A DNA stretch of 36,515 nt, from NCBI GenBank assembly GCA_018499985.2, contig JAHBAT020000019.1, positions 1-36,515 of the forward strand, in the 5' to 3' direction. The notes under the pieces are model-generated. The model saw nothing but the letters and a program-made list of their open reading frames with translations, ran no database searches and was not told the origin of the DNA. This stretch comes from Candidatus Moraniibacteriota bacterium (lineage in GTDB: Bacteria > Patescibacteriota > Minisyncoccia > Moranbacterales > UBA1568). How positions within the stretch are numbered: position 1 is the first letter of the stretch; every line of letters starts with the position of its first letter. The translations under genes and the position numbers were made by a program. This document shows, one piece after another, positions 2,793-36,515 of the stretch.

Positions 2793-2825
2793 AGGAGAAA
2801 GCTACAACTAACTTTCGCTTTGAAG

Positions 2826-2870: not shown

Positions 2871-3551
2871 AATAATCCAGAGACCGAGAGAAAACCCTCC
2901 CAGAATAGTAAAGCCAAAGAGAAGAAGGAGAGGAAGTCCTTTGATATATGTTGGTTTGTACTGGGACATGCGCTCTATGAGTCGCCAGGTATCAGCTGCA
3001 AATGAATCGGTACTATAGGCAGGACGAAGCTGGAGGGTTTCGTTTTCGTAAACTTTATTTTTAGATACAGCGGTGTAGCTCTTGCCAGCAAGCTCGTTTG
3101 TATTGATATACGGAGCATCATTGGTTTTTCGGTCATAGGGAGAAGTATAAGTAATATACGCGCAGTATTTCTTCTCCATCGACTCTGGTATGCGCTCAAA
3201 GGTGAAGCGGGTGTAGTTTAATGGTTTTGGCTTGAGAGGTGTCCAGCTGTCAGTGGCAAGTGTATGGGCACAAGATTCATCACGCAACTCAAACACAAGC
3301 GCCTCTCCTGGCCAGAGGTCTAGACCCCCGATATGCACCTTGACCTCCGAAAGACCATTTTCTTGAGCGACAAATACCTGAGAAAGAGGCTTGTCTATAG
3401 AAAGACGGGCACGATCTTTTTTGCCAAGAAAATTATAGTCAGAATCAGGAAAATGCAGCTTTGAGGTGAAGCCCAGTATGATAGAGCCAAAGCCAATAAT
3501 AAAGGCTCCTAGGAGGATTTTTTGAGCTGTAGCGGCATTCTGAAGGGGCAT
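2841..3551 (-). CDS. Two-TM membrane protein with an extracytoplasmic domain, unknown family
   Basis: I do not recognise this 236-residue protein. A hydrophobic helix near the N-terminus (about residues 11-29), a roughly 170-residue polar region rich in aromatic and beta-type segments, and a second helix near the C-terminus (about 206-230) before a charged tail (EKEEDRRR) suggest both ends are inside and the middle domain is outside. The domain contains isolated Cys residues that could pair. It starts 2 bases after the stop of the upstream DUF2142-like gene, so the two are surely co-transcribed, and it may be a partner of that predicted glycosyltransferase. An upstream in-frame ATG at 3602 would overlap that gene by 49 bases, so the ATG at 3551 is preferred. 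No SD. Confidence 0.7.
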   Translation of the reverse strand: MPLQNAATAQKILLGAFIIGFGSIILGFTSKLHFPDSDYNFLGKKDRARLSIDKPLSQVFVAQENGLSEVKVHIGGLDLWPGEALVFELRDESCAHTLATDSWTPLKPKPLNYTRFTFERIPESMEKKYCAYITYTSPYDRKTNDAPYINTNELAGKSYTAVSKNKVYENETLQLRPAYSTDSFAADTWRLIERMSQYKPTYIKGLPLLLLFGFTILGGFSLGLWIIFEKEEDRRR

Positions 3552-5005: not shown

Positions 5006-5040
5006 GAGTATAGTATAATACAATGGCTTAATAAAGCCAT
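4991..5040. promoter_or_regulatory. Divergent promoter region with palindrome ATGGCTT-AATA-AAGCCAT
   Basis: For the plus-strand epimerase operon, TTGGAA (4991-4996) and TATAAT (5014-5019) have a 17-bp spacer. The -35 lies inside the start of the minus gene. On the minus strand two TATACT hexamers (5012-5017 and 5007-5012) lie just before ATG 5005, giving a nearly leaderless transcript. A perfect 7-bp palindrome with a 4-base gap (5023-5040) sits over the expected plus-strand start site at about 5026 and could be an operator or a 5' hairpin. Confidence 0.55.
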
Positions 5041-7361: not shown

Positions 7362-8624
7362 ATGAGGGTGTCTTACTTAAAAAATGTACTCTTTTTTGTT
7401 TGGAGCAAAGAAACTATTAAAAATAGTGTATGGGTTTCTTTGCGGTATGGTATTGTGTCTGCCATAGGGCTCCTGCTTTCCGTTGCCTTTGCTCGCCTTG
7501 CAACCAAGGAAGTATTGGGGCAGTATCAGGTCATTCTTTCGATTATAGCCTTTTTTTCCATAGCTTCGCTTCCAGGATTAAATACATCGGCTTTACGTTC
7601 AGTAGCGAGGAATGAGTCCGGTACAGTGAAGCAAGCAGTAAGATTAAGTTTCATATCAAGTATTCTGGCTATTCCTGTGCTCGTGGGTTATGGGATATAC
7701 CTACTTCAGATGAGTGGTGGTCAGTCTACTGATGTAGGAGTAGCTTGCATTGTTCTGGGGGCTCTACTTCCATTCCTCTACGCATCCAATACTTGGTATG
7801 TTTTCTATGAGGGGAAGTTGCTTTTCCGTTCAGTTTCTATAAAGATTATTTTTTCGACAGCCGTTATTGCTCTTTGTATGTATGCAGCCCTTTGGTATAG
7901 ACTGAGCGCCTTTTGGCTTGCCTTAATCTGGTTTTCCTTAAATGCTCTTTTTTCATGGTTGTACTATTGGCAGGTTTCGATACAAGAAGACCAAGAAAGT
8001 GATACGCGAGGTAAGATTGATATTCGTTATGGATTAGGCTTGTCAGCTCAGAAGTTTGTAGTTAATCTTACTGATAACTTCCCAGTGATGGCGATTGCCT
8101 TTTTTATTGGGTATGAGGCGGTAGCAACGTACCAAGTGGCTTCTGGATTTGTGGTGGCTCTCACGGGGCTATTAGCAGCCCTTACTGCTATGTCGTTGCC
8201 ACTTATTTTTTCTCAGACAAAAGAAGACTTTAAGAGTATTTTTATTCAAAATGTCTTGATGGGACTCCTAGGATCTTTGGGGTACTTTGTTGTAGTGAAG
8301 CTCTTTTTTATTCTCTTATATGGGGATGGATTTAGCGAGAGTTACGCTATCGCAAAGCAGCTCTGGCTCTTACCATTTTTTATATCTATACGCCTATTCC
8401 TAGTAAATATATTTACTGCGCGTCAAAAAAATAAATTAATTGTAGGAAGCTATCTTTTAGTGAGTATCTCTTCGTTGTTCTTGCTTTTTTATATTGTTCA
8501 AAGAGCTAGTTTTACAGCGAGTATTGCGTACTATCTGTATTTTATCAACGGAGCTCTGATAGCCATTTTTTCATTAGCGTATTATTTTTCTAAAGCCTCT
8601 AAAAAAACAGACTCAATTTGCTGA
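7362..8624 (+). CDS. Wzx-like oligosaccharide flippase (MOP superfamily)
   Basis: This 420-residue polytopic protein has about 12 hydrophobic segments. Its N-terminus has the pattern of polysaccharide transporters: a helix after a K/S-rich start, then R-L-A-T-x-E-x-L-G-Q-Y near residue 45-56, common to PST-type flippases. It should flip the undecaprenyl-diphosphate-linked oligosaccharide to the outside. It is the only MOP-type flippase in the window, so it probably serves the whole locus. It begins 9 bases after the dehydratase stop, third in the plus operon. Its 3' end overlaps the convergent GT4 gene by 43 bases, with no terminator between. Confidence 0.85.
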   Translation: MRVSYLKNVLFFVWSKETIKNSVWVSLRYGIVSAIGLLLSVAFARLATKEVLGQYQVILSIIAFFSIASLPGLNTSALRSVARNESGTVKQAVRLSFISSILAIPVLVGYGIYLLQMSGGQSTDVGVACIVLGALLPFLYASNTWYVFYEGKLLFRSVSIKIIFSTAVIALCMYAALWYRLSAFWLALIWFSLNALFSWLYYWQVSIQEDQESDTRGKIDIRYGLGLSAQKFVVNLTDNFPVMAIAFFIGYEAVATYQVASGFVVALTGLLAALTAMSLPLIFSQTKEDFKSIFIQNVLMGLLGSLGYFVVVKLFFILLYGDGFSESYAIAKQLWLLPFFISIRLFLVNIFTARQKNKLIVGSYLLVSISSLFLLFYIVQRASFTASIAYYLYFINGALIAIFSLAYYFSKASKKTDSIC

Positions 8625-17081: not shown

Positions 17082-18986
17082 TTATATTGTTTTATTATAA
17101 GCGGAATCAAAGTATTCTTCAAACCAGAGCTCCAAAGTAAGGAGCGCCCAAATACGCGGAGCATGATTGATTCCGGTTTGGACATGCTCATCCAGAAATG
17201 AGCGAATGGCACTTTCTTTGAAGAGTCCTCGAGAAAGAGCCTTTTGTCCAAGAAGTTTCTCGTAGACAAAGTCTTTGAGTTCTCCTCGAAACCACTCATC
17301 AATAGGAATACCAAAGCCCATCTTTGGACGAAACATAACTTCGTCAGGAACAATACCACGGAGCGCTTCTTTGAGAATATACTTCTTGTTATCGAGACCT
17401 TTGAGTTTGAGTGAAAAGGGAATCTTAGACGTGAGTTCCAGGAATTCATGGTCAAGGAAGGGAGAGCGACCCTCTAGTGAAACTGCCATACTAGCCATGT
17501 CTACTTTTACAAGCAGGTCATCTGGGAGGTACGTCATAAAGTCAGCATAAACTGCTTGCTCGGTACGATTTCTTGAGCCACTTTTTCGAAAGAAGTGAGA
17601 AATCAGAATATTGGTATCGCCGAAAGCCTTTTCTTTAAATGTATCTGTGTAGAGGTTATTTTTTTGAGGAGTAGTAAAATAGGCCGTATACATCATATAT
17701 CGACGACTGTAGTTTTGGTTGAGGGTTTTTATAAAACGATGAAGTCGTTCAAAAAAATTGGTCTTAAATATTTTTGAAGCACCATAGGCTATTGGCATAA
17801 GAAGAAGTGTGAAATAGCCGATATATTCAGTAAGGAGAGAAATCCGAAATGCACTGTAACGGCTGTAGCCAGCAAAGTTTTCATCACCGCCATCGCCATT
17901 AAGTGCTACGCTCACGTGTTCATGAGTGAGTTTGCTTACCATGTAGGTAGGTAGAGCACTAGAGTCAGCAAAAGGCTCTTCGTACTGACGCACGAGCATT
18001 GGGAGAAGCTCCATGGCATGAGGTTCCACGATAAATTCTGTATGATCGGTATGAAACTTGTCCGCTACCATACGAGCGTATGGCAGCTCATTGTATTTTT
18101 CGGCTACGAACCCAATAGAAAAGGTTTTGATAGGTGTCTTACTGTGTCTACTCATAAGGGCCACAATAGCACTTGAGTCGATACCACCAGAAAGAAAGGC
18201 TCCAAGAGGAACGTCAGAAATCATGCGTAGACGCACTGATTCATCGAGTTTTTCTATAATTTGTTTCTTCCATTCAGTTTCGCTCAGCTTCCATTTGGTA
18301 GCATAGCTGAGCTTCCAATAGCACTTTTCTTCTACTTTCCCACTCTTGAGATTGACAGTAAGAGTATGAGCAGGCTTGAGCTTGCGAATACCCTTAAATC
18401 CAGTAAGTGGCGCGGGTACATACTGAAGAGTTAGATAGTGATGTATGGCTTCGTAGTCTGGCTCACGTGTGTATTCTGGTTGAGTCAGGATAGCCTTGAG
18501 TTCTGAGGCAAAGATAAAGGTCTTATCATCGAGATAGTATTTGAAGGGTTTTTTGCCTACACGGTCTCGAGCGCAGAAGAGGGTGTGATTTTGTTCATCA
18601 TAGATAACAAAAGCAAACATGCCACGAAGATGGTCGAGGCATTTCTCGCCGTACTCAGCATAGAGAGCGAGGATTACTTCGGTATCAGAATGCGACTTAA
18701 AAGAATAACCTTTTTGGATAAGTTCTTCGCGTTTTTCTTGAAAATTATAAATTTCTCCATTGAAAACAATCTCATAGCGATCAAGATAGCGCATAGGCTG
18801 GTGACCAAGAGGGGAGAGATCGATAATAGAGAGACGCTGGTGACCAAGGCCTACACAAGTATCTGGAGAAATATAAACACCACTATCATCTGGACCACGA
18901 TGAGTAATAGTGTTATTCATAGCTGAAATTACTTCAGGAGTAACACTTTTTTGATTGAAAGTAGCCTTACCGACAATACCGCACAT
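17082..18986 (-). CDS. asnB: Glutamine-hydrolysing asparagine synthase-like amidotransferase
   Basis: This 634-residue two-domain enzyme has the nucleophile Cys2 after Met, R50 in HQRLSI, NGE (76-78) and D101 of a class II glutaminase, and then the synthetase domain with the PP-loop SGGIDSS (266-272) and LNGDGGDENFAGY. Classical function is ATP-dependent transfer of glutamine ammonia to aspartate. Homologues in O-antigen and capsule loci are thought to amidate uronic acids or other sugar carboxylates. A UDP-glucose dehydrogenase gene in this window (27015) would supply a uronic acid, so a glycan-tailoring role is plausible but unproven. It heads the minus operon, with its own promoter (TTGCCA-N17-TATGAT). 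Confidence 0.93.
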   Translation of the reverse strand: MCGIVGKATFNQKSVTPEVISAMNNTITHRGPDDSGVYISPDTCVGLGHQRLSIIDLSPLGHQPMRYLDRYEIVFNGEIYNFQEKREELIQKGYSFKSHSDTEVILALYAEYGEKCLDHLRGMFAFVIYDEQNHTLFCARDRVGKKPFKYYLDDKTFIFASELKAILTQPEYTREPDYEAIHHYLTLQYVPAPLTGFKGIRKLKPAHTLTVNLKSGKVEEKCYWKLSYATKWKLSETEWKKQIIEKLDESVRLRMISDVPLGAFLSGGIDSSAIVALMSRHSKTPIKTFSIGFVAEKYNELPYARMVADKFHTDHTEFIVEPHAMELLPMLVRQYEEPFADSSALPTYMVSKLTHEHVSVALNGDGGDENFAGYSRYSAFRISLLTEYIGYFTLLLMPIAYGASKIFKTNFFERLHRFIKTLNQNYSRRYMMYTAYFTTPQKNNLYTDTFKEKAFGDTNILISHFFRKSGSRNRTEQAVYADFMTYLPDDLLVKVDMASMAVSLEGRSPFLDHEFLELTSKIPFSLKLKGLDNKKYILKEALRGIVPDEVMFRPKMGFGIPIDEWFRGELKDFVYEKLLGQKALSRGLFKESAIRSFLDEHVQTGINHAPRIWALLTLELWFEEYFDSAYNKTI

Positions 18987-19074: not shown

Positions 19075-20022
19075 ATGGAAATCATATCTTGCAAGGCTTG
19101 TGGGGGAGATAATTGGCAGAGTGTCCTTGAAACAAAAGATTATTTACACAATATCCCAGGACTTTTTACGATTGCTCGATGTACTGACTGTGGCTTTATG
19201 GCCACTAATCCAAGGCCAGATGAGAAGGAAATCATGGCCTATTATCCGGAAGAATATGGCCCCTATCAACTCAATACCGCACGAGTAGAAAAAGTGGTAG
19301 CCCATCAGAAGAAGTACCCCTTTCTTTTTAGCTTGGTAGATCCGCAAATTTTTAGGATTGGACGAGAGAAGTGCGCTAATTGTGAGCTTAGGGTGCTCGA
19401 AATTGGGTGCGGAGCAGGGAATTTTCTTTACGAGTTGAGACTCCGTTTTCCAAAGTGGAAGCTCGTAGGAACTGATTTCAGTGTGCGCTCTATTGAGAAA
19501 TTGCAAGAAAAAGGAATTGAAGCCTATGTTTCAGATCTCAAAGTATTGCCACACAATGACAAATCACAAGACATTGTCTACGGTTTCATGATTGTCGAAC
19601 ATTTGCACAAACTTGAACAGACTCTCGGTGAAGTGAAGCGTGTACTCAAAGATGATGGCAAGCTTGTCATTGCGGTACCAAATATCAAGAGTTGGCAATT
19701 TCGGGTTTTTGGTAAGTATGCCTACATTCTCCATATACCGGCGCACCTCTATCACTTTGATGAAAAAACTTTGACTACCGTAATGAAGAAAAATGGTTTT
19801 GAGGTAGAAAGCATGACGTATCACCGCACTCTTCAGGATAGCTCTTTTAGTCTCTGTAATGCGATAAGAGAAAGTCAGTTACCTGAGAGTCTCAAGAGTA
19901 TACTCTTAAAAATATTTCGTTGGCGCACAGCGTATCACTTTCTGACATTACCTTTGGCCTATATCCAAGCTTGGACAAAGCAGTCGCCTGGCATGACGGC
20001 AGTATTGCGAAAATCTTCTTAA
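19075..20022 (+). CDS. SAM-dependent methyltransferase with N-terminal zinc ribbon
   Basis: This 315-residue protein has an N-terminal four-Cys ribbon (C6, C9, C36, C39) with ARCTDCGFMATNPRPDE, the usual start of the C-methyltransferase-like proteins in polysaccharide loci. Motif I VLEIGCGAGNF lies at 107-117, followed by VGTDFS, YGFMIVEHLH and VLKDDGKLVIAVPN. The C-terminal part is basic and hydrophobic. It stands alone between divergent and convergent genes; its stop is directly adjacent to the stop of the GT4 gene at 20023, with no intervening base. Substrate unknown, glycan methylation inferred. Confidence 0.88.
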   Translation: MEIISCKACGGDNWQSVLETKDYLHNIPGLFTIARCTDCGFMATNPRPDEKEIMAYYPEEYGPYQLNTARVEKVVAHQKKYPFLFSLVDPQIFRIGREKCANCELRVLEIGCGAGNFLYELRLRFPKWKLVGTDFSVRSIEKLQEKGIEAYVSDLKVLPHNDKSQDIVYGFMIVEHLHKLEQTLGEVKRVLKDDGKLVIAVPNIKSWQFRVFGKYAYILHIPAHLYHFDEKTLTTVMKKNGFEVESMTYHRTLQDSSFSLCNAIRESQLPESLKSILLKIFRWRTAYHFLTLPLAYIQAWTKQSPGMTAVLRKSS

Positions 20023-21174
20023 TTAGGAAAGAATTTTTGTAAAAAGAGCCTGATATTTTTCTATAGCCTTGTTCCAGATAAAAAGAGAAGAGACCCTTTT
20101 TTCTGCCTCTAAGCCATACTCTTGTATGAGTTCAGGGTTAAGAGAAAGGGAGAGAAGATTTTTTTTGAGAGCTTCTATGTCTCTTGCTTCTATCAGGATG
20201 CCGTCTTTGTGGCCAGAAATAATTTCATTGGTACCGCCGACATCAGTAGCAATAATAGCTTTTTTGAGAAGAGCTGCCTCTATTACGGAGGTTGGTATAC
20301 CTTCGGTATAGCTAGGATTTACAAAAATATCAAACACTTTGAGGTAGCCCATAGCAACAGGAAGGGGTTGTGCTCCCAAAAAAAGCACGCGTGATTCAAT
20401 GGTAAGTTTCCGAGAGAGTTCCTCGAGACGAGCTTTTTCTGGTCCATCTCCAATTATGACAAGAAGAGCTTTTGGTATTTCTGCCTCAGCAAAAGCTTGA
20501 ATAAGATCATGCACTCCTTTGCCTTCAATAAGTCTACCAATGTAGCCAATAAGAGTTGTGTTTGGGTGAACTTCTTTGAGCTCTTTGATTGGTGAAGCAG
20601 AAAGAATAAGATCTTTTTCAACACCACGGTACACTACTTCGCAGTCAGTGCGGCCAGAGAGTTTGATGACAAATTTTCTGGATGCTTCTGAATTAGCAAT
20701 GACGAGTTTGGCATGTTTGAGTATGAGTCGTCCGAGCGTGTAGTCGTATATTTTACCGAGAAGATTTTTGGAGGCATTTTCAAATTGAGCGAAATCAGAT
20801 CCATGCTCTATATGAACCCAATGGATATGTTTTTTCCAAGCAAAATAGCCTGCCATAAGAGAAGGAAAGAAAAAGCGAGTGCGAGAAATTACAAGAGAGT
20901 AATTTCCTAGAGAAAGATTTTTCCAGAGCTTCCAGAAGTCTTTTTTCCAAAAAAGAGGAATTGGATAATTATGAATAATTTCTACCGCTGGGTAACGAAT
21001 GACCCGAACACGCGTATGCATGACTTCAGAGGAGGGTGCAGTGAGAGGAAGGCGAGGTGTAAACACGGTAATAGAGGCACCTTTTTCGGAAAAGTGCTTA
21101 TTGAATTCATCGCTGTGACTTTCGAGTCCACCACGATGAGGTGGATAGTAAGGTGAAAAAATAAGAAGCTTCAT
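20023..21174 (-). CDS. Glycosyltransferase family 4 (GT4)
   Basis: This 383-residue GT-B enzyme starts KLLIFSPYYPPHRGGLESH, the classical opening of GT4 mannosyl/hexosyltransferases with a GG acceptor loop. It has EHGSDF, IANSEASRKFV and YRGVEKDL before the hinge, then YIGRLIEGKGVHDLI, IGDGPEKARLEEL and EGIPTSVIEAALLKKAII at the donor site. It is the last gene of the five-gene minus operon, 3 bases after the GT-C-like gene. No SD. Specificity is unknown. Confidence 0.9.
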   Translation of the reverse strand: MKLLIFSPYYPPHRGGLESHSDEFNKHFSEKGASITVFTPRLPLTAPSSEVMHTRVRVIRYPAVEIIHNYPIPLFWKKDFWKLWKNLSLGNYSLVISRTRFFFPSLMAGYFAWKKHIHWVHIEHGSDFAQFENASKNLLGKIYDYTLGRLILKHAKLVIANSEASRKFVIKLSGRTDCEVVYRGVEKDLILSASPIKELKEVHPNTTLIGYIGRLIEGKGVHDLIQAFAEAEIPKALLVIIGDGPEKARLEELSRKLTIESRVLFLGAQPLPVAMGYLKVFDIFVNPSYTEGIPTSVIEAALLKKAIIATDVGGTNEIISGHKDGILIEARDIEALKKNLLSLSLNPELIQEYGLEAEKRVSSLFIWNKAIEKYQALFTKILS

Positions 21175-21177
21175 ATG

Positions 21178-23313
21178 TTAAGGAATGTACTGCCAAATGA
21201 TAATCTCTTCGTTGGGATACGTGTACACTCTTTGGAAGTGTTCAGGGACTTGATCGTAAATAAAAGCTGGCTCCTTAGTTATTTGAGAATTTTGACTGTA
21301 CGGTCTTCTCGCATAAGGGTTACGAGCATCTGGTTTCGCATAATAGACGTATATATTATGAAGAGAATGCTCAGGATTTTTTTGGGAGGAGAGAGGGACT
21401 TCTTTTTGAAAGTCTTGAGAAATTTTTTCTAGACGAGCAGCCTCCCTTAAAAGGTCATCTTTTTTTGCTGTCAGTGTAAAGCTGTTGATATTTTGAAGAG
21501 CAAGGGTGACTTGTTGTTGGAAATTTTTGTAGTAGAAATCTAGTTCTGGACTATTAGCTGAGTAATCGTCTAAGAGCTTAAAAAAGATTCTTTGATCAAA
21601 ATAGAAAAGAGGGTCATTGGTAGAGATAGTTTTTATTTGAGCGTGTGTGCGGAGTAGATTTTCGTTGCCACTGGTGAATACGATGGCGTTAGAGGGTAAT
21701 GAGGTTTTTATCCAATCGGCGGAATAAAGTTGAGGAGGTGTAATGAGAAACTGCTTTAGCTGATTGATATACAAAGCCCCAATGATATTGATGAAAAGAA
21801 GACAGATTACAAGATAGGGTGTCCATAGCCAGCGTCGGGAAAGATAATTGAGAGCTGGTATAAATAGTGCAAAAGCAAAAAGCACAGTAATGCCCCATGC
21901 GCGTTCTGGCAAGAGTGCAATATTAAAAAAACGAGGAAGTAACTCAGAGATACTAAAAAATACAAAGGCACTTAAGCTGAGGACAAAGATTTCGGGAGAA
22001 GTACTGAGGGTACGATAAAAAGGATATTTTTTCCAAAAAAAATAAAAGAAGTAACCAAAGAGAATGAAAAAAAGTGGCCCAGCATAGAAAGCGTAGTAAC
22101 GAAGAACTCCCATAGGCGAATTCCAGCCAACGGACATGCCGTCAATATTGATATACGTTGCTGGGTATGCAAAATTGAAAGTGCTTTTTTGAAAGAGAAC
22201 AAAAAGATTTTGAATCCAAAGAAAGATAAATTGGAATACTGATGAAAAAAGAGAAAGAAGATGGAGAATAATGAAGACGCTTAAAAGAGCAATAAGAAAA
22301 GGATTTTTTTGATAGAGCGATTTTAGTGAATTTTTGTAAAAAAGAAGAGTAGAAAAAATCCAAAGTAATAAGATAATACCAGCAGCTTCATGATAAAATG
22401 CTGTACCTGCAAGGATAAAGCCACCCCAAAAAAAGAAAAAACGATTCTTTGAAAAATAGCTTATAAGCAGTGAAAGACAGAAGAGTATGAGGCCAAAATT
22501 GAGGATGGCCTGAGGAATGGGAGTGTGACTGTAGAGTACAAATGATCCCGTCACAAAGGGGAAAAGATAGACAATAACTTTTTCTTTTTTTGAAGTAAAG
22601 AAAGAGGCGATAAGGGTAAGTGGTAAGACAAGTAGGAGAGAAAAGAAAGGAAGGACGTACTTGAAATAAGCGTAGCTGTCTATTTGGGCGCTTTTGATAA
22701 AGATATAAGCCAGGGAAGAAAAAAGTGGTCGATAGAGATGTAGCGCAGTGACGATACCATTGGTAAAATCTTTTTGATACAGGGAAAGCCAGTAATAGGG
22801 ATCAAGATCAGGAAGAGCATAAAAAGCCCGGACAATTATGGTTGTGAAGGTGGCAAAAAAGAGAGTTGTGAAGAGAAGGTGAACTTGATTTTTTTTGAGT
22901 GAATGCCAGAGGGATTCCTCTGGAAACTCTAGAAATTGAGGGTTGAGTAGCCAGGCGAAGATAAATGTAATAAAGGAAAAAAAGACGGGTGTAAGTGGAT
23001 GTGTAATGAGTAGGAAGCTAAAAAGAAGGGTAATGAAAAGAGGTGGAATAATAAAGCTTAAGGTAGTTGCTAGGAAAAGTTTTTCTAGCCAGTTAAATTT
23101 TTTTTGAAAAAGTTTTTCTGTAATACTGGCTAGATTGATGCCAGCAAGCGGTAAGCAGATACTAAGAACAAGAAGAGAAAAGCTGATTTTCAGGAGAGGC
23201 TCATCACTAGAGGGTGCAACAGCGCTTATAGCAAACAACAAAAAAAGACCAAAATTAAGGAGAAAAAGGTTTCTGGTAAAATCTTTAGAAGAAAGATGAG
23301 GGAGCAACCGCAT
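21178..23313 (-). CDS. Large polytopic membrane protein, GT-C-like
   Basis: This 711-residue protein has roughly 12-14 hydrophobic segments over the first 530 residues and then a soluble C-terminal region of about 180 residues that should face outside. DLDPYYW (169-175) in the first large outer loop resembles the acidic loop of GT-C glycosyltransferases and STT3-like proteins. HEAAG and LLPRFFNIALLPERAW further on resemble membrane-embedded polymerase or mannosyltransferase segments, but I recognise no named family. Its operon contains a GT2 of the polyprenyl-phosphate-sugar synthase type, which could make its donor. A Wzy-like polymerase is an alternative. It lies 5 bases after the DUF2304 gene. 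Confidence 0.7.
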   Translation of the reverse strand: MRLLPHLSSKDFTRNLFLLNFGLFLLFAISAVAPSSDEPLLKISFSLLVLSICLPLAGINLASITEKLFQKKFNWLEKLFLATTLSFIIPPLFITLLFSFLLITHPLTPVFFSFITFIFAWLLNPQFLEFPEESLWHSLKKNQVHLLFTTLFFATFTTIIVRAFYALPDLDPYYWLSLYQKDFTNGIVTALHLYRPLFSSLAYIFIKSAQIDSYAYFKYVLPFFSLLLVLPLTLIASFFTSKKEKVIVYLFPFVTGSFVLYSHTPIPQAILNFGLILFCLSLLISYFSKNRFFFFWGGFILAGTAFYHEAAGIILLLWIFSTLLFYKNSLKSLYQKNPFLIALLSVFIILHLLSLFSSVFQFIFLWIQNLFVLFQKSTFNFAYPATYINIDGMSVGWNSPMGVLRYYAFYAGPLFFILFGYFFYFFWKKYPFYRTLSTSPEIFVLSLSAFVFFSISELLPRFFNIALLPERAWGITVLFAFALFIPALNYLSRRWLWTPYLVICLLFINIIGALYINQLKQFLITPPQLYSADWIKTSLPSNAIVFTSGNENLLRTHAQIKTISTNDPLFYFDQRIFFKLLDDYSANSPELDFYYKNFQQQVTLALQNINSFTLTAKKDDLLREAARLEKISQDFQKEVPLSSQKNPEHSLHNIYVYYAKPDARNPYARRPYSQNSQITKEPAFIYDQVPEHFQRVYTYPNEEIIIWQYIP

Positions 23314-23318
23314 GGTAT

Positions 23319-23660
23319 TTATTTTTCAAGATCCTGAAGGCTTTCTTGGCGTGTCAGGGTAGTGATTTGTTGTTCAAGTTTTTCAATGGCTGAAAGGAGC
23401 TTAAAGAGCATAAGAAAGACCAGGAGAAAACCAGCAAGGATAACAGCGTTGATGTTACCTTCAATACCGATAAGTTTGGCTACTGTATTGCTCACGTGTG
23501 GAAAGGTGACCACGGTAGCCATGCCTCCCCAGACAATGATGCGGGTAAGGAGCTTGAGAAATGTCTGATTTCCCTTGCCTCCAAAATAGTTCTTCAGTCC
23601 TTGAAAAATCATAATGGCCGCAAAAGCAACAATAATAATTTGGTAGAGTGCAAAGTGCAT
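23319..23660 (-). CDS. DUF2304 family membrane protein
   Basis: This 113-residue protein has three hydrophobic segments (about 1-22, 35-55 and 60-85) and a C-terminal coiled-coil-like tail (LLSAIEKLEQQITTL). This fits PF10066/DUF2304, which is regularly encoded beside GT2 enzymes of the dolichol-phosphate-mannose synthase type, as here. A partner or membrane anchor for the GT2 at 23678 is the usual guess. ATG 23660 is chosen because relatives begin with the first helix; an ATG at 23696 would overlap the GT2 gene by 19 bases. TATAAT lies ten bases before ATG 23660. Confidence 0.82.
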   Translation of the reverse strand: MHFALYQIIIVAFAAIMIFQGLKNYFGGKGNQTFLKLLTRIIVWGGMATVVTFPHVSNTVAKLIGIEGNINAVILAGFLLVFLMLFKLLSAIEKLEQQITTLTRQESLQDLEK

Positions 23661-23669
23661 AGTGTTCGT

Positions 23670-23675
23670 ATTATA
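23670..23675 (-). promoter_or_regulatory. Possible internal -10 box before the DUF2304 gene
   Basis: A perfect TATAAT on the minus strand lies ten bases before the ATG at 23660, in the 17-base gap after the GT2 gene. A start about seven bases later would leave a leader of only two or three bases. The -35 region is poor, so it may be chance. Confidence 0.3.
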
Positions 23676-23677
23676 AG

Positions 23678-24349
23678 TTATGAAATCATATGCCAAATAA
23701 TTTTGTAGAGGGTTTTGAGTCCATTGACAAAGCCTTGTTTTTGGATTTTCCCCATACTGTATTCAGTATAGCGCACTTCGATAGGGACTTCGGAGTAGCG
23801 GAGTTTATGAAGATAAATTTCTCGAATGACCTCACTATCGTACTCATAGCGGTCTGTTTTGGTATTGATTATTTCTACTGCATGACGTGAGTAGGCACGA
23901 AAGCCAGACTGACTATCTGAAACCCAAAGACCGTAGATGTACCAAGTAACAGCGTTGCCGATATGATTAGCAAGGATTTTATACCAAGGCATCCCCTTGG
24001 GGTTTTTGAGTCGAGTCCCAAGAGCTACGTCGCACTTGCCATTGAGGATAGGCTGGATAAGTCGCGCTATATCCTCTGGGTTATGCTGACCATCACTATC
24101 GAGAGTTACGACTAGCTCGCAGCCAAGTTTTTTGGAGGCTTCGATACCGGTTTTCGTTGCGGCACCTTTGCCGCGATTGATTTTGTGGCGAAGTGCGATG
24201 ATGCCCGGTAGAGACCGAGCTACGGCATAGGTATCATCGGTACTCCCATCGTCGACGAGGATAATTTTTTGGTAGCCAGCATCCTGGATCTCTTTGATGA
24301 CATCTTTGATGATTTTGGATTCATTGTAGGCAGGAAGGACTATCCACAT
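23678..24349 (-). CDS. GT2 of the polyprenyl-phosphate hexose synthase type (DPM1-like)
   Basis: This 223-residue GT-A enzyme has VLPAYNE (4-10), LVDDGSTDDT (31-40) and the metal-binding DSDGQHNPED (84-93), then SQSGFRAYSR, a typical DPM1/DPG-synthase sequence. It lacks C-terminal TM helices, so it may rely on the adjacent DUF2304 protein for the membrane. It should load a hexose from GDP- or UDP-sugar onto undecaprenyl phosphate for use outside by GT-C enzymes such as that encoded at 21178. It begins 3 bases after the epimerase gene. Confidence 0.9.
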   Translation of the reverse strand: MWIVLPAYNESKIIKDVIKEIQDAGYQKIILVDDGSTDDTYAVARSLPGIIALRHKINRGKGAATKTGIEASKKLGCELVVTLDSDGQHNPEDIARLIQPILNGKCDVALGTRLKNPKGMPWYKILANHIGNAVTWYIYGLWVSDSQSGFRAYSRHAVEIINTKTDRYEYDSEVIREIYLHKLRYSEVPIEVRYTEYSMGKIQKQGFVNGLKTLYKIIWHMIS

Positions 24350-24352
24350 ATG

Positions 24353-25273
24353 TTATTTCTTAAACCATTCAAAAGTTTGCTTGAGGCCGTCTCTGAGTGA
24401 TACTGTTGGTTGCCAGGTAAGTTCGTCTTGGGCGCGGGCGCTATCAAGAGAGCTCATTTTTTGTTCGCCAGGAATAGAAGGGGCGTGAATTTCTTGAAAA
24501 GAATTATCAAAGAAATCATTGAGGAGAGAAAAGATCTCATTAACAGTTGTTTCTTTGCCGGTGCCTATATTGTAGATACCAGAAGCAGACTCAGTCTCGA
24601 GGGCGGCAATGTTGGCTCGGACGACATCGCCCACGAATATATAATCTCGGCTTTGCATGCCATCGCCATTGATGGTGGGCTGTTCTTCCCCAAGCATCTT
24701 ATTGAGAAAAATAGCGACTACACCAGCTTCCCCATGAGGGTTCTGGCGTGGACCGTAGACATTGCCATAGCGAAGCGAAATGGTTTTCAGAGGAGTGGCT
24801 TCTCTATAAAAAGCCAGGTACTTGTCGATGGTAAGCTTAGCAATACCGTAGGGAGAGAGAGGATTTTCATTGTGTGTCTCAGGAGTTGGTCGAATACTGG
24901 TATCTCCATACATGACCCCACCAGTAGAAGAAAAAATAATTTTTTGAACTCCTTTTTTGGAGGCCATATTTATTAAGTTTAGAGAGGCGAGTATATTTGT
25001 ATGGGCATCAAAGAGAGGGTCTTCTGTAGATTTGCGTACATTAATTTGGGCAGCTAAGTGAAAAACGGCGTCAAAAGTGTAATCGGTAAAAAGTTTATGA
25101 AGAACTTCCTCGTGAGTGATATCTCCCTCTATAAACGTAGCTTGGGGATTGATATTGGTGGTCTTGCCGCTACTTAAGTTATCGTAGACAAATACAGAGT
25201 GTCCACGTTCAATAAGGGCATCGACTAGATGCGACCCGATAAAGCCTGCTCCGCCAGTGACAAGGATATTCAT
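24353..25273 (-). CDS. NAD-dependent UDP-sugar epimerase (GalE-like)
   Basis: This 306-residue extended SDR has TGGAGFIGSH (6-15), VFHLAAQINVRKS, SSTGGVMYGD and the catalytic YGIAK (142-146), with RYGNVYGPRQNP and GDGMQSRDYIFVGDVV in the substrate half. This pattern is that of GalE/WbpP-type UDP-hexose 4-epimerases. It probably interconverts UDP-glucose/galactose or the GlcNAc/GalNAc pair; the substrate-size residue cannot be judged reliably. It heads the five-gene minus operon and is divergent from the GT2 gene at 25388. Confidence 0.88.
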   Translation of the reverse strand: MNILVTGGAGFIGSHLVDALIERGHSVFVYDNLSSGKTTNINPQATFIEGDITHEEVLHKLFTDYTFDAVFHLAAQINVRKSTEDPLFDAHTNILASLNLINMASKKGVQKIIFSSTGGVMYGDTSIRPTPETHNENPLSPYGIAKLTIDKYLAFYREATPLKTISLRYGNVYGPRQNPHGEAGVVAIFLNKMLGEEQPTINGDGMQSRDYIFVGDVVRANIAALETESASGIYNIGTGKETTVNEIFSLLNDFFDNSFQEIHAPSIPGEQKMSSLDSARAQDELTWQPTVSLRDGLKQTFEWFKK

Positions 25274-28342: not shown

Positions 28343-30184
28343 ATGATAGAGGGTAAACACTTCCCAAAGATCGGTTTGGTGCTCGTGATAGGACTCTATC
28401 TTTTTTTTGGCTTGAGTCACTTGGGTCAATTTGTAACCGCTGATGAAAATAAGTGGTTGTATGAACGTATCCCAAATTATTGGGAAGCTATTCATGATCA
28501 CAAATGGAAAAAAACCTTTATCAACGATAAACCAGGGGTCAGTATTGCTCTTATGGGCTTGCCAGCAATTAAGCTGTATCCAGACTCGAGAGAGTTTTGT
28601 AAGGAGGGAGAAGATAGAATCATTCAGTGTGATACCGCGAATGCGGAGCACTTTCTTATCGCTTTTCGGCTACCACTTATTTTGATCAACGGAGCGCTAC
28701 TTATCCTACTCTTTTTTGTCCTTGGTAGATTGATAAATCCTTGGGTAGCCCTTTGGAGTGCGGCGCTTATTGGTCTTTCGCCGCCACTCATGGGTATTTC
28801 TCAGATAGTTAATCCAGATGCTTTCTTGTGGTCTTTTGGGAGTGTGGCAACCTTTGCTTTTTTCTTGACCCTCCAAACGGGGGAGAAAAAATGGTCTGTC
28901 TTGAGTGGGCTTCTCTTGGGCATGGCTTTGCTTTCTAAATACACAGCGCTCATTCTCTACCCTTTCTTTTTCGGTGTTTTGGTTCTTGGATTTCTCTTAT
29001 CAGAAAATAAAGAATCTTCTCGGCTCGACTTTATCCGAAACTTGAAACTCTGGTGTTTGCTTGGAGTAGTAGCGCTTGTGACGACGTGTCTTTTCTTGCC
29101 AGCCTTCCTTGTAAGTCCAGGATATTTTATCGGTAAGTATTTGTTTAGTATAGGGCAGAAAGGGTTACTTATGACCCTTGGATTATTACCCCTTATTATT
29201 GTACTTGGAGATACTTTTCTTTTTCGGTCTCGAGGCATGCTCTTTTTCAAGCAAAAACAAGTGTATTTGAGAGATACAATGACCAGTGTAGTATTTGTTT
29301 TTGGATTGATGCTCGTGACGACTCTTTTTGTGCGGAGAATTTTTTCAGAATGGGAAATATTTAGAGTGCTTCCATTTGATACCAAAGAACTTTCTTCAGC
29401 TATAAAGTACGGAGTAGAGCTAAACTTTTTTGAAGCATGGCTTCTAGAGTGGAGCCCACTCGCGTTTTCTTTGACTCCGGCAGTTCTTCTTGGGGTGGCG
29501 TTTCTTTGTGTCTTCGCATGGAAGCATCGGCAGGAAAAATTAGCTTTAGGGGTAGTTACTTCAGCTATTTTTGTATTCCTATATCTAGGAATATTAGTGG
29601 TGACCGATGTCTTTACGACTATTCGCTACTCCATCATCCTCTACCCGTTTGTAGGATTTTTAGCGGCTATGGGATTTTGGTATTTGAGTGAGAGGATAAA
29701 TTTTAAGGGGAAGTATTTTTGGATAACGGGTCTTATCCTGAGTACTTCATGTGCGAGTTTATTTTTGATCAAACCTTTCTATCTCAACTATACGAGTGAC
29801 CTTCTGCCCAAAAAAGATATCTTAAGCGATGCTTGGGGGTACGGAGGCTATGAGGCTGCAATGTATCTCAATAGCTTGCCAGACGCAAAGAATCTCACTG
29901 TTTGGGCGGACTACTATGGAGTGTGTGAATTTTTTGTAGGCAAGTGTCTGACAGCTTATACCTACGATGGTACGAATATCAAGCTCGACTATTACGTATT
30001 TACAAGAAGAGGACGTATCCGCTATTGGTCTCGGTATACTAACTGGGAACGTACATCAGGCCTGACAGCCTATAAGTACTACGATGACAAGAATCCAGCA
30101 TGGGAACTCTCGATAGATAATCGGCCACTCAATCAGGTCCGAGTGGTGAAGAATTCTGAAGAAGGGGGCTCTTTACAAAAATAA
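28343..30184 (+). CDS. GT-C glycosyltransferase of the GT39/ArnT-like group
   Basis: This 613-residue protein has about 11-12 hydrophobic segments. TADENKW (32-38) in the first outer loop holds the Asp-Glu expected of GT-C catalysis, followed by INDKPGVSIALMG, which resembles the KP motif of ArnT/PMT proteins. NPDAFLW and LSKYTALILYP match the same group. A soluble C-terminal region after the last helix carries GVCEFFVGKC (526-535) and NPAWELSIDNRP. The protein at 33153 is a clear paralogue with the same C-terminal pattern. It begins 20 bases after ugd, last in the plus operon. Likely transfers a sugar from a polyprenyl-phosphate donor outside the membrane. Confidence 0.87.
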   Translation: MIEGKHFPKIGLVLVIGLYLFFGLSHLGQFVTADENKWLYERIPNYWEAIHDHKWKKTFINDKPGVSIALMGLPAIKLYPDSREFCKEGEDRIIQCDTANAEHFLIAFRLPLILINGALLILLFFVLGRLINPWVALWSAALIGLSPPLMGISQIVNPDAFLWSFGSVATFAFFLTLQTGEKKWSVLSGLLLGMALLSKYTALILYPFFFGVLVLGFLLSENKESSRLDFIRNLKLWCLLGVVALVTTCLFLPAFLVSPGYFIGKYLFSIGQKGLLMTLGLLPLIIVLGDTFLFRSRGMLFFKQKQVYLRDTMTSVVFVFGLMLVTTLFVRRIFSEWEIFRVLPFDTKELSSAIKYGVELNFFEAWLLEWSPLAFSLTPAVLLGVAFLCVFAWKHRQEKLALGVVTSAIFVFLYLGILVVTDVFTTIRYSIILYPFVGFLAAMGFWYLSERINFKGKYFWITGLILSTSCASLFLIKPFYLNYTSDLLPKKDILSDAWGYGGYEAAMYLNSLPDAKNLTVWADYYGVCEFFVGKCLTAYTYDGTNIKLDYYVFTRRGRIRYWSRYTNWERTSGLTAYKYYDDKNPAWELSIDNRPLNQVRVVKNSEEGGSLQK

Positions 30185-30249: not shown

Positions 30250-30843
30250 ATGGCTCAGGATCGCTTGTTTGTCGAAGATAGTCCGCGCCTGGAAGGAGCG
30301 GTTGCTAGCGGTGAAGCACCGAATAACCGCGTGGTGAGAAAGGTGCTCGCCAAACAGGGACGAAAGAAGGGAGGGAGAGGCCGAAATCGAGGCTCTTCGG
30401 GCGAACCAGTCTATTTCTATGAACGGGAAGGTTTCCGTCTTTCCAATTTCTCGGCCCATGCTATCGAGCTTGAAGTGGCCGGCAAGATGCACATTTTCAT
30501 GACCTGTGAGCATGCGTATCAGGCTTCCAAATTTACCGATCAGACTATCATCAATAAGATTGGTCTGGCCTGGTCGGCGGAAGAAGCCAAGGCTATCGCG
30601 CATGCGCATCGGGATCTGTACCGTCCGGACTGGACGGAGCAGACGAAGCTTCGCGTGATGGAACGGATTTTCCGAGCCAAGGCGAAGCAGCACAAGAGTG
30701 TGCGAGAGTATCTCGCGAGTACGCGTCATCGCAAGTTGGTGGAAAATTCCCCGATAGATGATTTTTGGGGCATTGGTTCTGACAAGACTGGCCGCAACCA
30801 CGCCGGTAGGCTCTGGATGAAGATTCGTCCTGACTACCAATAA
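30250..30843 (+). CDS. NADAR family protein (YbiA-like) with a basic RG-rich N-terminal tail
   Basis: This 197-residue protein has the NADAR (PF08719) signature: LSNFSAH (64-70), TCEHAYQASKF (85-95), a DW pair (127-128), LVENSPIDDFWG (163-174) and GRNHAGRLWM (181-190). Family members act on N-glycosidic bonds; some degrade riboflavin intermediates (YbiA) and others remove ADP-ribose from guanine in DNA as antidotes of DarT2 toxins. No DarT-like gene is visible here. Residues 1-52 precede the domain and include a Lys/Arg/Gly-rich stretch (about 27-48) that could bind nucleic acid. Codon choice is GC-richer than in the glycan genes, and it has its own promoter, SD and terminator. Domain call is firm; substrate is open. 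Confidence 0.9.
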   Translation: MAQDRLFVEDSPRLEGAVASGEAPNNRVVRKVLAKQGRKKGGRGRNRGSSGEPVYFYEREGFRLSNFSAHAIELEVAGKMHIFMTCEHAYQASKFTDQTIINKIGLAWSAEEAKAIAHAHRDLYRPDWTEQTKLRVMERIFRAKAKQHKSVREYLASTRHRKLVENSPIDDFWGIGSDKTGRNHAGRLWMKIRPDYQ

Positions 30844-33152: not shown

Positions 33153-35468
33153 TTATTCTTGCTCGCTCGGAGCGTTTGCTTTGTCGTATTTGAAGGCTCT
33201 GACGTAGTGAGAAGGTCGGTTATTGATCTTGACCTCAAAAGCGGGATTGTTTTCTTCGTAGAAGAGGTGGATGGGTACTACAGCTTCAGGATTACGACTA
33301 TAACTCGAACGTATCATATGACCAGTGCGTACCTCACGAGCCGAGGAGATAACGACGTAATCAATGGTTTGATCAGTGATAACTTCTTTATTGTTACCAC
33401 GCTTGCAGCGTCCGACAAAGAATTGGCAGACACCATCTTTATCGGTCCAGATAAGGATGTTTTGGGCATCAGGGAGTGCATTGAGTTTTTGGGCGATCTC
33501 GTAGCTTCCTGGACCCATGTCCTTGAGGTCAATGTAGTATTCCTTAGGGAGAAGTTCTGAGGCGTAGGAGAGAGGGAAGTAGGTACGAGCAAGCGTACCT
33601 GTGCCTACCAAGATAAGAGCATAGGACATAAAGAAAACAAAAGTATTTTTCTTATAATGGAGCTTCGTCTCTAGTACTCGAGCAAGGGAGAGGAGTCCAA
33701 TACCTGAAATAAGGGCCACGAGAGGGAAAATAATAATCTGATAACGGATGATAGAGGCAACGCCGTTTACCGTGGCACCAAGGTAGTAAACAAGGACAAA
33801 GATACTAGCATAGAAAGCAAAACGGAGACCTGAATTTTTGAGGGCATCTTTTTTGGCAATAAAATATGCTACTAGAAGAACACCCAGAAGAGCTACAGGA
33901 GTGAGTCCAAAGACCATGGGATAGAAATTGGTCAGGAAAACTCCAAGGAGATCACTTTTGTCGCTAATAGTTTTTGGTGATGCAATCAGTTCCATAAAGG
34001 GATAGACGGACATTTTGGTCCAGGTGTTGTAGAGGGTGAAGATGATGCCACCAAAGAAAAGGGCACTGACGAGAAGGGTGAGGGAGTGTTTGATTTTAGC
34101 AATTTTCTCGAGACAAAAAAGGGTGATCCTGGCGCGATTGAAGAATTGATCAAGAAGAATGAAAGTAATAAGAAAGACAAAAAGCGGAGCTACTTTGACG
34201 AAGGCTTGGCTAAGGAGAGTGCTTTGTACCAATTCTTTTGGATCAAGCCAGTTGGCTGGGAGAATAAGGTAAAATGTAGCGAGTGAAACAAAGATAACAA
34301 AAGCTATCTGGAGAAGGGATTTTCTTAGATAGTCTGTAAATATGAGGGCGTTTTTCTTTGGGTGGTACAGGTACTCCAAGAAGAGAAGGGCCAAAAGATA
34401 GATGTAGACGATATTGGCTATGTACTTGGTAAGAAGAGCAAGGCCAAGAAAAAATCCTGAGAGAAAAAGATACCGATACCAGGCTCGTTTTTGAAAGACG
34501 AGAAAAGACAGAAGTGAAAGTGTGGTAAAGAGCCAGAGAAGAGCATCGGGATTGATAATCTTGGTCACGCCAATAAGAATAGGAGAAGTGGTAAGGATGG
34601 TATAGGAAAGGATGGCGCCTCCGCGACCAATAAGTCTTTCAAGAAGAAAATAAACCAGAGGAAGAAGAAGGGTGACAAAGATAAGAAGAGGAAGCCTGAA
34701 GGCTTTGAAAAAAGCTTCCATATCGAGGCTTTTATTTACAAACACTTCACCACCACTACGAGTATCATCGTATACTTCTGGATCGTACTGCCAAAGGCCA
34801 GCTCCTGAGAGAATAGCGACAGTAATACCGGGCTTGTCACTGACATCCGTCTTTTGCCATTCTTGTTCTGATACATTATTCCAGAATTTTGTGATACGAC
34901 CATATAGCCAAAGTGGTTCATCGACAGCGGCGTATTGGCCAAGACGCATATAGCCAAAGGAGAAAAAGATGCCCGTAAGGATGAGTACAAGGAAGAGTAC
35001 ATGAGCTCCTTGGCGCTTGAACCAGACACGCAAGGTATCTCCATGAGGTGAAGAAGTGTCTTGAGAGAAGGCCACACGGAAAAGTACAGATATTGCAAAA
35101 ATAAGCGCAAGACCACTACCAAGCTGAAAGACAAAGTGAAAGTTTTTTGAAAGAGAAATACTGACCTGGATAAGCAGAATAGATGGAAGAAGGGCAAGAC
35201 TCATACTCTTCAAGCGTACAAGAAGGGGACGCTGAGAAAAAGTAGGATGAATGAAGAAGTGGAGAGTGAGTAAGGTGCCAAGAAGAAGGAAGAGGAAATA
35301 AATGAGAGTATTGCTACTCCCTGTGTGTAGTCCAAGAAAGCGCAGCTCGGGGACTTGTTTGGCAACAAATATAAAGCTATTAATGAAAAAGAGGCCTCCT
35401 AATACCTGTAAAATACGACGCTCAGACAAGCCGAAAATTCTTTGAAGAAAGTTTTGGTGGGTATTCAT
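33153..35468 (-). CDS. GT-C glycosyltransferase of the GT39/ArnT-like group, long paralogue
   Basis: This 771-residue protein is a paralogue of that at 28343. The shared part starts near LGQYAAVDEPLW (176-187, catalytic Asp-Glu candidate D183-E184), continues with SDKPGITVAILSG, INPDALLW and LTKYIANIVYIY, and ends with GVCQFFVGRC (679-688) and NPAFEVKINNRP. In front it has an extra 149 residues with about five hydrophobic segments that the paralogue lacks. The C-terminal outer domain holds two conserved Cys seven residues apart. It is monocistronic on the minus strand, transcribed toward the shared terminator. The role should be sugar transfer at the outer face from a lipid-linked donor. Confidence 0.87.
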   Translation of the reverse strand: MNTHQNFLQRIFGLSERRILQVLGGLFFINSFIFVAKQVPELRFLGLHTGSSNTLIYFLFLLLGTLLTLHFFIHPTFSQRPLLVRLKSMSLALLPSILLIQVSISLSKNFHFVFQLGSGLALIFAISVLFRVAFSQDTSSPHGDTLRVWFKRQGAHVLFLVLILTGIFFSFGYMRLGQYAAVDEPLWLYGRITKFWNNVSEQEWQKTDVSDKPGITVAILSGAGLWQYDPEVYDDTRSGGEVFVNKSLDMEAFFKAFRLPLLIFVTLLLPLVYFLLERLIGRGGAILSYTILTTSPILIGVTKIINPDALLWLFTTLSLLSFLVFQKRAWYRYLFLSGFFLGLALLTKYIANIVYIYLLALLFLEYLYHPKKNALIFTDYLRKSLLQIAFVIFVSLATFYLILPANWLDPKELVQSTLLSQAFVKVAPLFVFLITFILLDQFFNRARITLFCLEKIAKIKHSLTLLVSALFFGGIIFTLYNTWTKMSVYPFMELIASPKTISDKSDLLGVFLTNFYPMVFGLTPVALLGVLLVAYFIAKKDALKNSGLRFAFYASIFVLVYYLGATVNGVASIIRYQIIIFPLVALISGIGLLSLARVLETKLHYKKNTFVFFMSYALILVGTGTLARTYFPLSYASELLPKEYYIDLKDMGPGSYEIAQKLNALPDAQNILIWTDKDGVCQFFVGRCKRGNNKEVITDQTIDYVVISSAREVRTGHMIRSSYSRNPEAVVPIHLFYEENNPAFEVKINNRPSHYVRAFKYDKANAPSEQE

Positions 35469-35676: not shown

Positions 35677-36496
35677 ATGCCGTCTATTTCTAAAAAGTAT
35701 CTATGGGTATTGCTCCTAGTTGTAGCGGTTGGAATTTTTGTGCGCGCGTATCAGTTTGGTACCTGGATTCATTTTGAGCTAGATCAGGCACGTGATGCCA
35801 AGGTTATTGATCTGGCCTTTGAGGGTAGTTTTTGGGATCTACCTCTGCTTGGACCTAAGGCAGGCGGCACTTTTCTTCGTTTGGCGCCAGGATTTTATTA
35901 TTTGCAGTATATAAGCGGGGTGATTTTTGGACAGAGTATCGCTGGTATCTCGTCCTTAGTAGCTGTTTTTTCGATTCTTACTCTCCCAGTGCTTTTTCTT
36001 TTCTTACGAAGAGGTTTCCGTGAAGAAATCAGCCTTGGACTCACGGCCCTGGCTTCGGTGTGTGTCTATCTTGTGCTTTTTGGACGTTTTGGCTGGAATC
36101 CAAATTTGCTGCCATTTTTCTTGACCCTTGGATTCTATGCCTTGTTACGTGCAGTTGATCGAGATACAGAGAAAAAGACGAGATGGTTTTTATTGGCTAC
36201 TTTTGCCCTTACTTTTGCTACACATTTTCATTTTCTGGCCTTCCTTGCGGTACCGGTTATTGTCATAGCTTTCTTGATACTAAAAAGAGCACATTTCTCT
36301 TGGGCAGCCTGGGGAGGGGCAGTGCTGATAGTTTTGTTTCTCTATTTGCCAATGGGAGTCAATGAAGTCAAAACGGGAGGAAGTAACACAAGTGAGTTTT
36401 TTGGCGCTATCACGGAAAAATCTACCAAAGAAGAACGGACACTCATAGAAAAGAGTATTCGTAATGTTTCTGAATTTGGGCAAGCAAGTGTAGTAG
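35677..36496 (+). CDS. GT39-like GT-C glycosyltransferase, 3' end missing
   Basis: The frame is open from ATG 35677 to the contig edge, giving 273 genuine residues before the adapter. The first helix (about 8-24) is followed by ELDQARDA (34-41), the acidic first-loop motif of many PMT/ArnT-like proteins, then KAGGTFLRLAPGFYYLQY and at least six further hydrophobic segments. It resembles bacterial GT39-like glycosyltransferases that carry D-Q-A-R-D, a subgroup different from the 28343/33153 pair. No SD precedes the ATG. The last residues that could be read (SYTH) come from the adapter and must not be included. Confidence 0.82.
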
Positions 36497-36515
36497 CTGT
36501 CTCTTATACACATCT
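36497..36515 (+). other. Nextera/Tn5 mosaic-end adapter (artefact)
   Basis: The final 19 bases, CTGTCTCTTATACACATCT, are the reverse complement of the Tn5 mosaic end used in Nextera libraries, complete and without mismatch. It stands exactly at the contig edge inside an open reading frame. This is library adapter read-through, not genome sequence. Confidence 0.97.

Follow-up and report, generated by a model that had tools for sequence, protein, structure and literature searches.

A five-gene unit of a Candidatus Moraniibacteriota bacterium probably encodes a multi-component transmembrane glycosylation module whose predicted GT-C enzyme belongs to a new sequence family

A 36,515-nucleotide stretch of DNA from a Candidatus Moraniibacteriota bacterium (contig JAHBAT020000019.1, positions 1 to 36,515; the whole stretch is referred to as the window) carries five open reading frames on the minus strand, among which a gene for a 711-residue membrane protein of unnamed sequence family lies between genes resembling those for lipid-linked sugar synthesis and a glycosyltransferase gene. 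The locus raises the question of what this large protein does and whether the five genes work together. The window corresponds to contig C14 of a genome (G000) of 892 kb, rated 98.6% complete. The analyses indicated that the set is probably a multi-component transmembrane glycosylation module in which the 711-residue protein would represent a new sequence family of GT-C enzymes. The five genes are the following:

24353 to 25273, minus strand: NAD-dependent sugar epimerase/dehydratase, GalE-like, an optional member (306 amino acids; Pfam Epimerase, 8.7e-64)
23678 to 24349, minus strand: glycosyltransferase family 2 (GT2) protein of the dolichyl/polyprenyl-phosphate-sugar synthase type, GacI/PpgS-like (223 amino acids; Pfam Glycos_transf_2, 1.1e-26)
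23319 to 23660, minus strand: DUF2304 small membrane protein, GacJ/Rv3632-like (113 amino acids, ATG start; Pfam DUF2304, 1.4e-16)
21178 to 23313, minus strand: 711-residue membrane protein, predicted GT-C fold, unnamed sequence family (AlphaFold model and matches to folds in the PDB)
20023 to 21174, minus strand: glycosyltransferase family 4 (GT4) protein, here GT4a, adjoining the 711-residue gene (383 amino acids; Pfam Glycos_transf_1, 4.8e-33)

A preliminary description of the window had placed five genes at these coordinates, with intergenic gaps of 3, 17, 5 and 3 bases, which was confirmed with the DUF2304 gene beginning at the ATG at 23660; a TTG at 23696 is a possible alternative start, giving an open reading frame (23319-23696) of 125 amino acids. 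The identities proposed for the epimerase, GT2, DUF2304 and GT4 genes all agreed with Pfam. The epimerase scored 209.4 bits against NCBIfam GalE, under the cut-off of 262.3, while the top NCBIfam match of the GT2 was PpgS (6.6e-44, 150 bits), under the cut-off of 370; by sequence, the GT2 matched dolichol monophosphate mannose synthase (5mlz, 1.2e-11) in the PDB. The DUF2304 protein reached 61.1 bits against a Pfam cut-off of 25.5. According to passages of PMC10821137, GacI with GacJ and WpsA with WpsB produce GlcNAc-P-C55 (phosphate-linked N-acetylglucosamine on the C55 lipid), the small protein boosting the activity of the GT2, and part of PMC8327497 presents DUF2304 as the domain typical of GacJ-like proteins. 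In excerpts of PMC9671496, PpgS with Rv3632 produces polyprenyl-P-GalNAc (the N-acetylgalactosamine equivalent), a uridine diphosphate (UDP)-sugar epimerase acting at an earlier stage and Rv3779 carrying out the last transfer. Through these characterised relatives the earlier proposal that the GT2 and DUF2304 proteins make a lipid-linked sugar inside the cell was borne out, and their assignment as a putative lipid-phosphate-sugar synthase pair is supported by analogy.

By sequence, the 711-residue protein had no match in NCBIfam and nothing above chance in Pfam (E 0.8) or the PDB, and among 23 members of its family scanned with Pfam none was over the cut-off for the named GT-C families (PMT, PMT_2, STT3, DUF2142 and others); scores for DUF6798 were weak and under the cut-off (best E 0.0021). 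The preliminary description had likewise recognised no family in this protein and had considered a new transferase, a view that the predicted fold described below favours. The open reading frame is more than a chance one, because near full-length frames (665-731 amino acids) recur in 14 relatives of the same order, eight at 29-35% identity and six more at 16-21%, and in 13 of these 14 the neighbours match those of the window. With the protein as a single sequence, relatives were found in 10 of 54 genomes, its own counted; a contig scan with the single sequence gave no relative, and an alignment-based search gave eight records, namely six metagenome-assembled genomes of Moranbacteria/Moraniibacteriota, one of Patescibacteria and one 'Bacterium BMS3Abin15'. 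Profile searches detected the family in 15 of 128 genomes of the window's order and in 10 of 383 genomes of a class sample, all ten belonging to that order. The restriction to one order that the class sample suggested was overturned by a phylum sample, in which 23 of 379 genomes were positive and 21 of them lay outside the class, two (G631 and G819) with weak partial matches. From these counts, the family is patchy yet spread across the phylum. No description of this gene set was found in the largely open-access literature searched on DUF2304 and on Moranbacteria glycosyltransferases.

What kind of enzyme the protein may be was addressed with an AlphaFold model built from 10 sequences (mean predicted local distance difference test score, pLDDT, 77.5; predicted template modelling score, pTM, 0.74). 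When the model was compared with the PDB by VIA-align, yeast STT3 gave Z 18.6 (root-mean-square deviation, rmsd, 9.5 over 411 residues), followed by PglB (15.8), AglB (15.6), ALG12 (15.4), Pmt4 (15.1), AftA (14.8; rmsd 4.9 over 322 residues) and ArnT (14.6), the first clearly unrelated row appearing at Z 7.7; since helical models without a clear match typically reach a best Z of 14 by arrangement alone, the STT3 and PglB values exceed that line and ArnT barely does. In Foldseek, all five hits at E <=0.001 were oligosaccharyltransferase chains. The model thus resembles STT3 and other GT-C enzymes, and this evidence for a GT-C fold is good but not tight; assignment of the protein as a GT-C-type transferase is supported by the predicted fold, and no known non-transferase family matched it.

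The same comparison bears on the idea, also raised in the preliminary description, that the protein is the missing polymerase. A new Wzy-type polymerase or O-antigen ligase would suit a large multi-helix protein in a polysaccharide locus on a contig with no Wzy_C match; it is nevertheless a very improbable reading, as STT3/PMT/ArnT-type enzymes account for the good fold matches and Wzy_C was not listed for any of the 23 scanned members. The genome moreover holds six Wzy_C matches, four of them over the cut-off and all on other contigs, so that there is no need to cast the protein as the missing polymerase. Of the Foldseek and VIA-align rows shown, none was recognised as a Wzy or WaaL structure, which does not by itself exclude such a fold. 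An oligosaccharyl- or monosaccharyltransferase acting on proteins would agree with the top folds (STT3, PglB, AglB and Pmt4) and with the alignment of the C-terminal domain to AglB given below. We regard this as unlikely, given the many polysaccharide-gene neighbours and the fact that Pfam STT3, matched in 3 of 54 relatives, has no match in the window's genome. WWDxG is the motif of STT3 oligosaccharyltransferases, and WWD occurred in none of 15 aligned sequences of the 711-residue family.

Three regions were distinguished within the protein:

22912 to 23313, minus strand: N-terminal part, residues 1-134, about four extra membrane helices ahead of the GT-C core (predicted model)
22789 to 22812, minus strand: PDLDPYYW, residues 168-175, a [D/E]-x-D motif placed by prediction in the first outer loop (15-sequence alignment)
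21181 to 21753, minus strand: C-terminal domain, residues 521-711, predicted to lie outside the cell (model)

Because the oligosaccharyltransferase alignments begin at model residues 129-147, about 134 residues, with four predicted helices (9-32, 39-68, 75-101 and 108-123), would precede the core. DUF1616 matched residues 41-132 of a distant member (L062, 891-2888) at 30.6 or 31.8 bits against a cut-off of 31.6, and a member on contig C35 of genome G793 (2761-3042) at 26.8 bits, below the cut-off; it had no match in the window's protein or elsewhere in G000. DUF1616 matches occurred in 10 of 27 genomes searched and, apart from L062 and G793, lay outside genes of the 711-residue type, most of them within 640-738-residue frames. 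Judging from these similarities, the added helices at the N-terminus may be a DUF1616-like module common to other large membrane proteins.

A review (PMC8035078, in part) notes that GT-C enzymes of such systems can have little common sequence and that one of their outer loops usually bears a DxD motif or a modified form of it. In the family alignment, all 15 members have D or E at residue 169 and D at residue 171, and PDLDPYYW is likely to be a catalytic or metal site; R195, H308, E309, R461, R471 and K520 are also invariant. For the C-terminal domain, the structural alignment was to the globular domain at the C-terminus of an archaeal AglB (3vu0_A; Z 9.6, rmsd 3.8, 115 residues). An N-terminus inside and a first core loop outside the cell fit the mean loop charges of the 15 sequences, in which loops 33-38 and 102-107 have little lysine plus arginine and loops 69-74, 124-134 and 237-266 have more; the first core loop (167-212) has means of 3.0 for lysine plus arginine and 4.5 for aspartate plus glutamate over 46 positions.

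Whether the genes work together was judged from their order in relatives. The set was found to be kept, though in two layouts: 14 of the 15 positive genomes of the order have the GT2, DUF2304 and GT4a genes at the 711-type locus. A GT4a relative (37-54% identity) lies beside the gene in 13 of the 14 loci other than the window, and an AsnB-type gene is at the locus in 13 of the 15 (12 of 14 besides the window). The exceptions are L062, counted as a miss although its contig is 3.9 kb long, which has none of the partners, and, for AsnB alone, L017. In nine sequences with P following the second D of the motif (window, L011-L017 and L064) the 711-type gene precedes GT4a, and in five with G at that position (L018, L019, L065, L066 and L067) GT4a precedes it. 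The GT2-DUF2304 pair is inverted in L018 and L019 and two genes away in L067. That the set stays together despite rearrangement argues for a joint function.

Across the phylum, 20 loci were fetched from 18 of the 21 new genomes (G718, G631 and G819 not included). Seven of them (L103, L110, L111, L112, L117, L122 and L124) have under 1.3 kb of sequence upstream of the gene, and none of these has a GT2-DUF2304 pair; with these left out, GT2 and DUF2304 were present in 12 of 13 loci with an uncut upstream flank. DUF2304 was over the Pfam cut-off in L106 (1.9e-25), L115, L116, L118, L119, L120 and L123, and scored 154-162 bits with a custom profile in the other five. Among the 20 loci, AsnB was present in seven and a GT4 scoring at least 250 bits against GT4a in eight. 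DUF2304 matched in 25 of 54 genomes, including all ten positive for the 711-residue protein (hypergeometric P 1.4e-4, relatedness ignored). The genes could be mere neighbours in a variable polysaccharide locus, without joint work, as gene shuffling is common in such loci, the epimerase is not always there, and the uncut locus L113 has a 711-type gene with neither GT2 nor DUF2304 in the stretch fetched. The retention of GT2, DUF2304 and GT4a in the order and of the pair across the phylum, through more than one gene arrangement, makes this explanation very improbable. In L114 (6196-10380) and L118 (7188-11298), two tandem 711-type genes follow one GT2-DUF2304 pair, which suggests that two GT-C enzymes may draw on a single lipid sugar.

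The comparison also altered the membership of the set in two respects that the preliminary description had overlooked. The epimerase, which it counted as a part, does sit in the window's locus, but of the order's other 14 loci only L017 has a close relative (57%), with distant ones in L012 and L015 (29-31%); among the phylum loci a close relative is found at L116 (375 bits), and some other loci have more distant ones beside them. It is thus a variable rather than a constant partner, GT4 and AsnB-type genes being commoner companions. The second is a frequent neighbour beyond the five genes:

17082 to 18986, minus strand: AsnB-type glutamine amidotransferase, companion gene (Pfam Asn_synthase, 3.8e-100)

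In the window, a methyltransferase gene on the opposite strand (19075-20022) separates GT4 from AsnB; in the seven relatives in which AsnB follows GT4a (L011-L016 and L064) nothing lies between the two.

The position of GT4a is also the point at which the main rival reading arises. In a Wps-like variant, the lipid-phosphate sugar is a primer that GT4, and others, lengthen in the cytoplasm, and the GT-C protein transfers a di- or oligosaccharide outside; it differs from the preferred reading in one step only, and the likelihoods expressed for the readings do not sum to one. GT4a directly adjoins the 711-type gene even where the GT2-DUF2304 pair is inverted (L018, L019) or two genes away (L067), and the best fold matches of the protein are oligosaccharyltransferases. 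In lactococci, as passages of PMC10821137 relate, GlcNAc-P-C55 is extended by a cytoplasmic transferase before a GT-C enzyme is thought to use it. Against this variant, the usual task of GT4 enzymes in loci of this kind is main-chain assembly on a pyrophosphate lipid; the GT4 neighbours in the phylum loci, moreover, frequently score poorly against GT4a, and the uncut locus L123 has no GT4 adjoining the gene. On balance, lengthening by GT4 is a tentative possibility. More doubtful is a bolder version, in which enzymes of the family, akin to oligosaccharyltransferases, would transfer a di- or oligosaccharide linked through a monophosphate, begun by GT2-DUF2304 and lengthened by the adjacent GT4, to a surface polymer or to proteins of small-genome bacteria, most of them without an STT3/PglB match.

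The preferred reading, in which a single lipid-linked sugar is used, calls for a flippase, and one candidate lies in the window:

7362 to 8624, plus strand: Wzx-type flippase, candidate for turnover of the lipid sugar (Pfam Polysacc_synt, 5.5e-13)

One GtrA match was found in the genome, on contig C11, and neither gene adjoins the five-gene unit. In L071 (490-2377) a Wzx-type flippase gene comes immediately after DUF2304, resembling the GacJ-GacK order, and in L075 (9092-9469) a 125-residue EamA-like four-helix protein (E 2.2e-6), possibly a small flippase, is encoded shortly after the GT2-DUF2304 pair. Other large proteins can occupy the place of the 711-residue protein: in L068 (3496-5778), L070 (3179-5431) and L072 (10278-12629), a different family (A3) of 750-783-residue membrane proteins follows GT2-DUF2304-GT4-GT4, without a Pfam match up to E 1 in L068 and L072 and up to E 0.01 in L070, and with a predicted model of mean pLDDT 41.6, too low for fold assignment. 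By hhalign, no homology was found between the 711-residue family and either A3 or a 773-residue neighbour in L078 (probability <=6.3 in these and in the two further hhalign comparisons mentioned below). In L069, where there is no 711-type gene, a DUF2142 protein, a member of the GT-C clan, lies 2.4 kb from the pair, which speaks for the proposed module.

Several observations weigh against the proposed enzyme and module. The top Foldseek hits had TM-scores of only 0.33-0.38 with rmsd of 18-20, the VIA-align superposition was loose (rmsd 9.5 to STT3, and 4.6-10.6 among the STT3, PglB, ALG12 and ArnT rows), and helical models can attain the Z of 14 mentioned above through arrangement alone. hhalign found no homology between the family and the window's PMT-type proteins or a DUF2142 protein. 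The model falls below pLDDT 50 at residues 168-171, part of the motif; the window protein's own loop 124-134 has no lysine or arginine; and the charges in residues 289-356 do not alternate simply, so that some helices there may be kinked single passes. As to the module, L113 lacks the pair, and no flippase was seen as a kept neighbour of 711-type genes, although neighbours were not scanned systematically for flippases. The AsnB-type protein scored above the cut-off for ordinary asparagine synthase (TIGR01536; 511.9 bits against 267.1) and under that for the XrtA-system amidotransferase (TIGR03108; 620.5 bits against 816.9), and its role in the glycan is for this reason only a guess.

Taken with these points, the proposed route would run as follows. 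The epimerase may adjust the nucleotide sugar, as its family suggests; the GT2, anchored at the membrane and stimulated by its DUF2304 partner, would put one sugar from a nucleotide donor on undecaprenyl phosphate at the inner face, as characterised relatives do; a flippase, perhaps the Wzx-type protein or GtrA, would turn the lipid sugar over; and the 711-residue protein, with its predicted GT-C fold and conserved motif, would release the sugar from its lipid phosphate and attach it to a glycan on the cell surface, a glycan that the GT4 and AsnB-type proteins probably build or amidate in the cytoplasm. Because of the parallels with the GacI/GacJ, WpsA/WpsB and PpgS/Rv3632 systems, the 711-residue protein most likely uses a lipid-phosphate sugar outside the cell; the predicted fold, the motif and the gene linkage come from the data themselves, and we infer the reaction, the sugar, the acceptor and the flippase from such comparisons. 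This provides a likely fold and a testable reaction for a large membrane protein family that is blank in the curated libraries searched, and indicates that a GacI-GacJ-type gene pair is retained alongside this family in members of the candidate phyla radiation, bacteria with poorly characterised surfaces. A working rule is suggested, that a large membrane protein encoded beside GT2-DUF2304 can be a GT-C enzyme though no profile recognises it.

Elsewhere in the window, three more PMT/PMT_2-type proteins are encoded at 28343-30184, 33153-35468 and 35677-36513, the last reaching the contig end. A NADAR-domain protein (30250-30843; Pfam 1.9e-26) lies within the polysaccharide locus, and a 489-residue protein (3554-5023) has about nine hydrophobic stretches and no Pfam match up to E 0.05.

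Among solved structures, STT3, PglB and AglB are the closest to the predicted fold of the 711-residue protein and share with it an acidic motif in the first outer loop and a C-terminal outer domain; it differs from them in having neither an STT3 Pfam match nor WWD and in about four added N-terminal helices. As a gene system, one of the closest parallels is GacI-GacJ-GacK-GacL of Streptococcus pyogenes, for the N-acetylglucosamine side chain of the group A carbohydrate, in which a GT2 and a small membrane protein make a lipid-phosphate sugar that a GT-C enzyme uses outside (passages of PMC8035078 and PMC10821137). A PMT-2 domain is listed for GacL in the consulted part of PMC8035078, whereas the 711-residue protein has no Pfam match; here, unlike in the Gac system, GT4 and AsnB-type genes go along, and a non-systematic scan identified no kept flippase neighbour. 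The mycobacterial and corynebacterial PpgS-Rv3632-Rv3779 system, with the epimerase Rv3634c, similarly combines an epimerase, a polyprenyl-phosphate-GalNAc synthase, a helper and a separate transferase (PMC9671496, in excerpt). PpgS is the top NCBIfam match of the window's GT2, but the score is far below the cut-off, so that the sugar cannot be named, and Rv3779 is likened to the 711-residue protein by role and not by sequence. In the WpsA-WpsB and WpsJ system of Lactococcus, a GT2 and its helper also make GlcNAc-P-C55 and a GT-C enzyme acts outside, although there the lipid sugar is first lengthened in the cytoplasm, a step that is only tentatively possible for the present genes (both from passages of PMC10821137). 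The type of system is known, while the presumed membrane enzyme at its end belongs to a sequence family previously unclassified.

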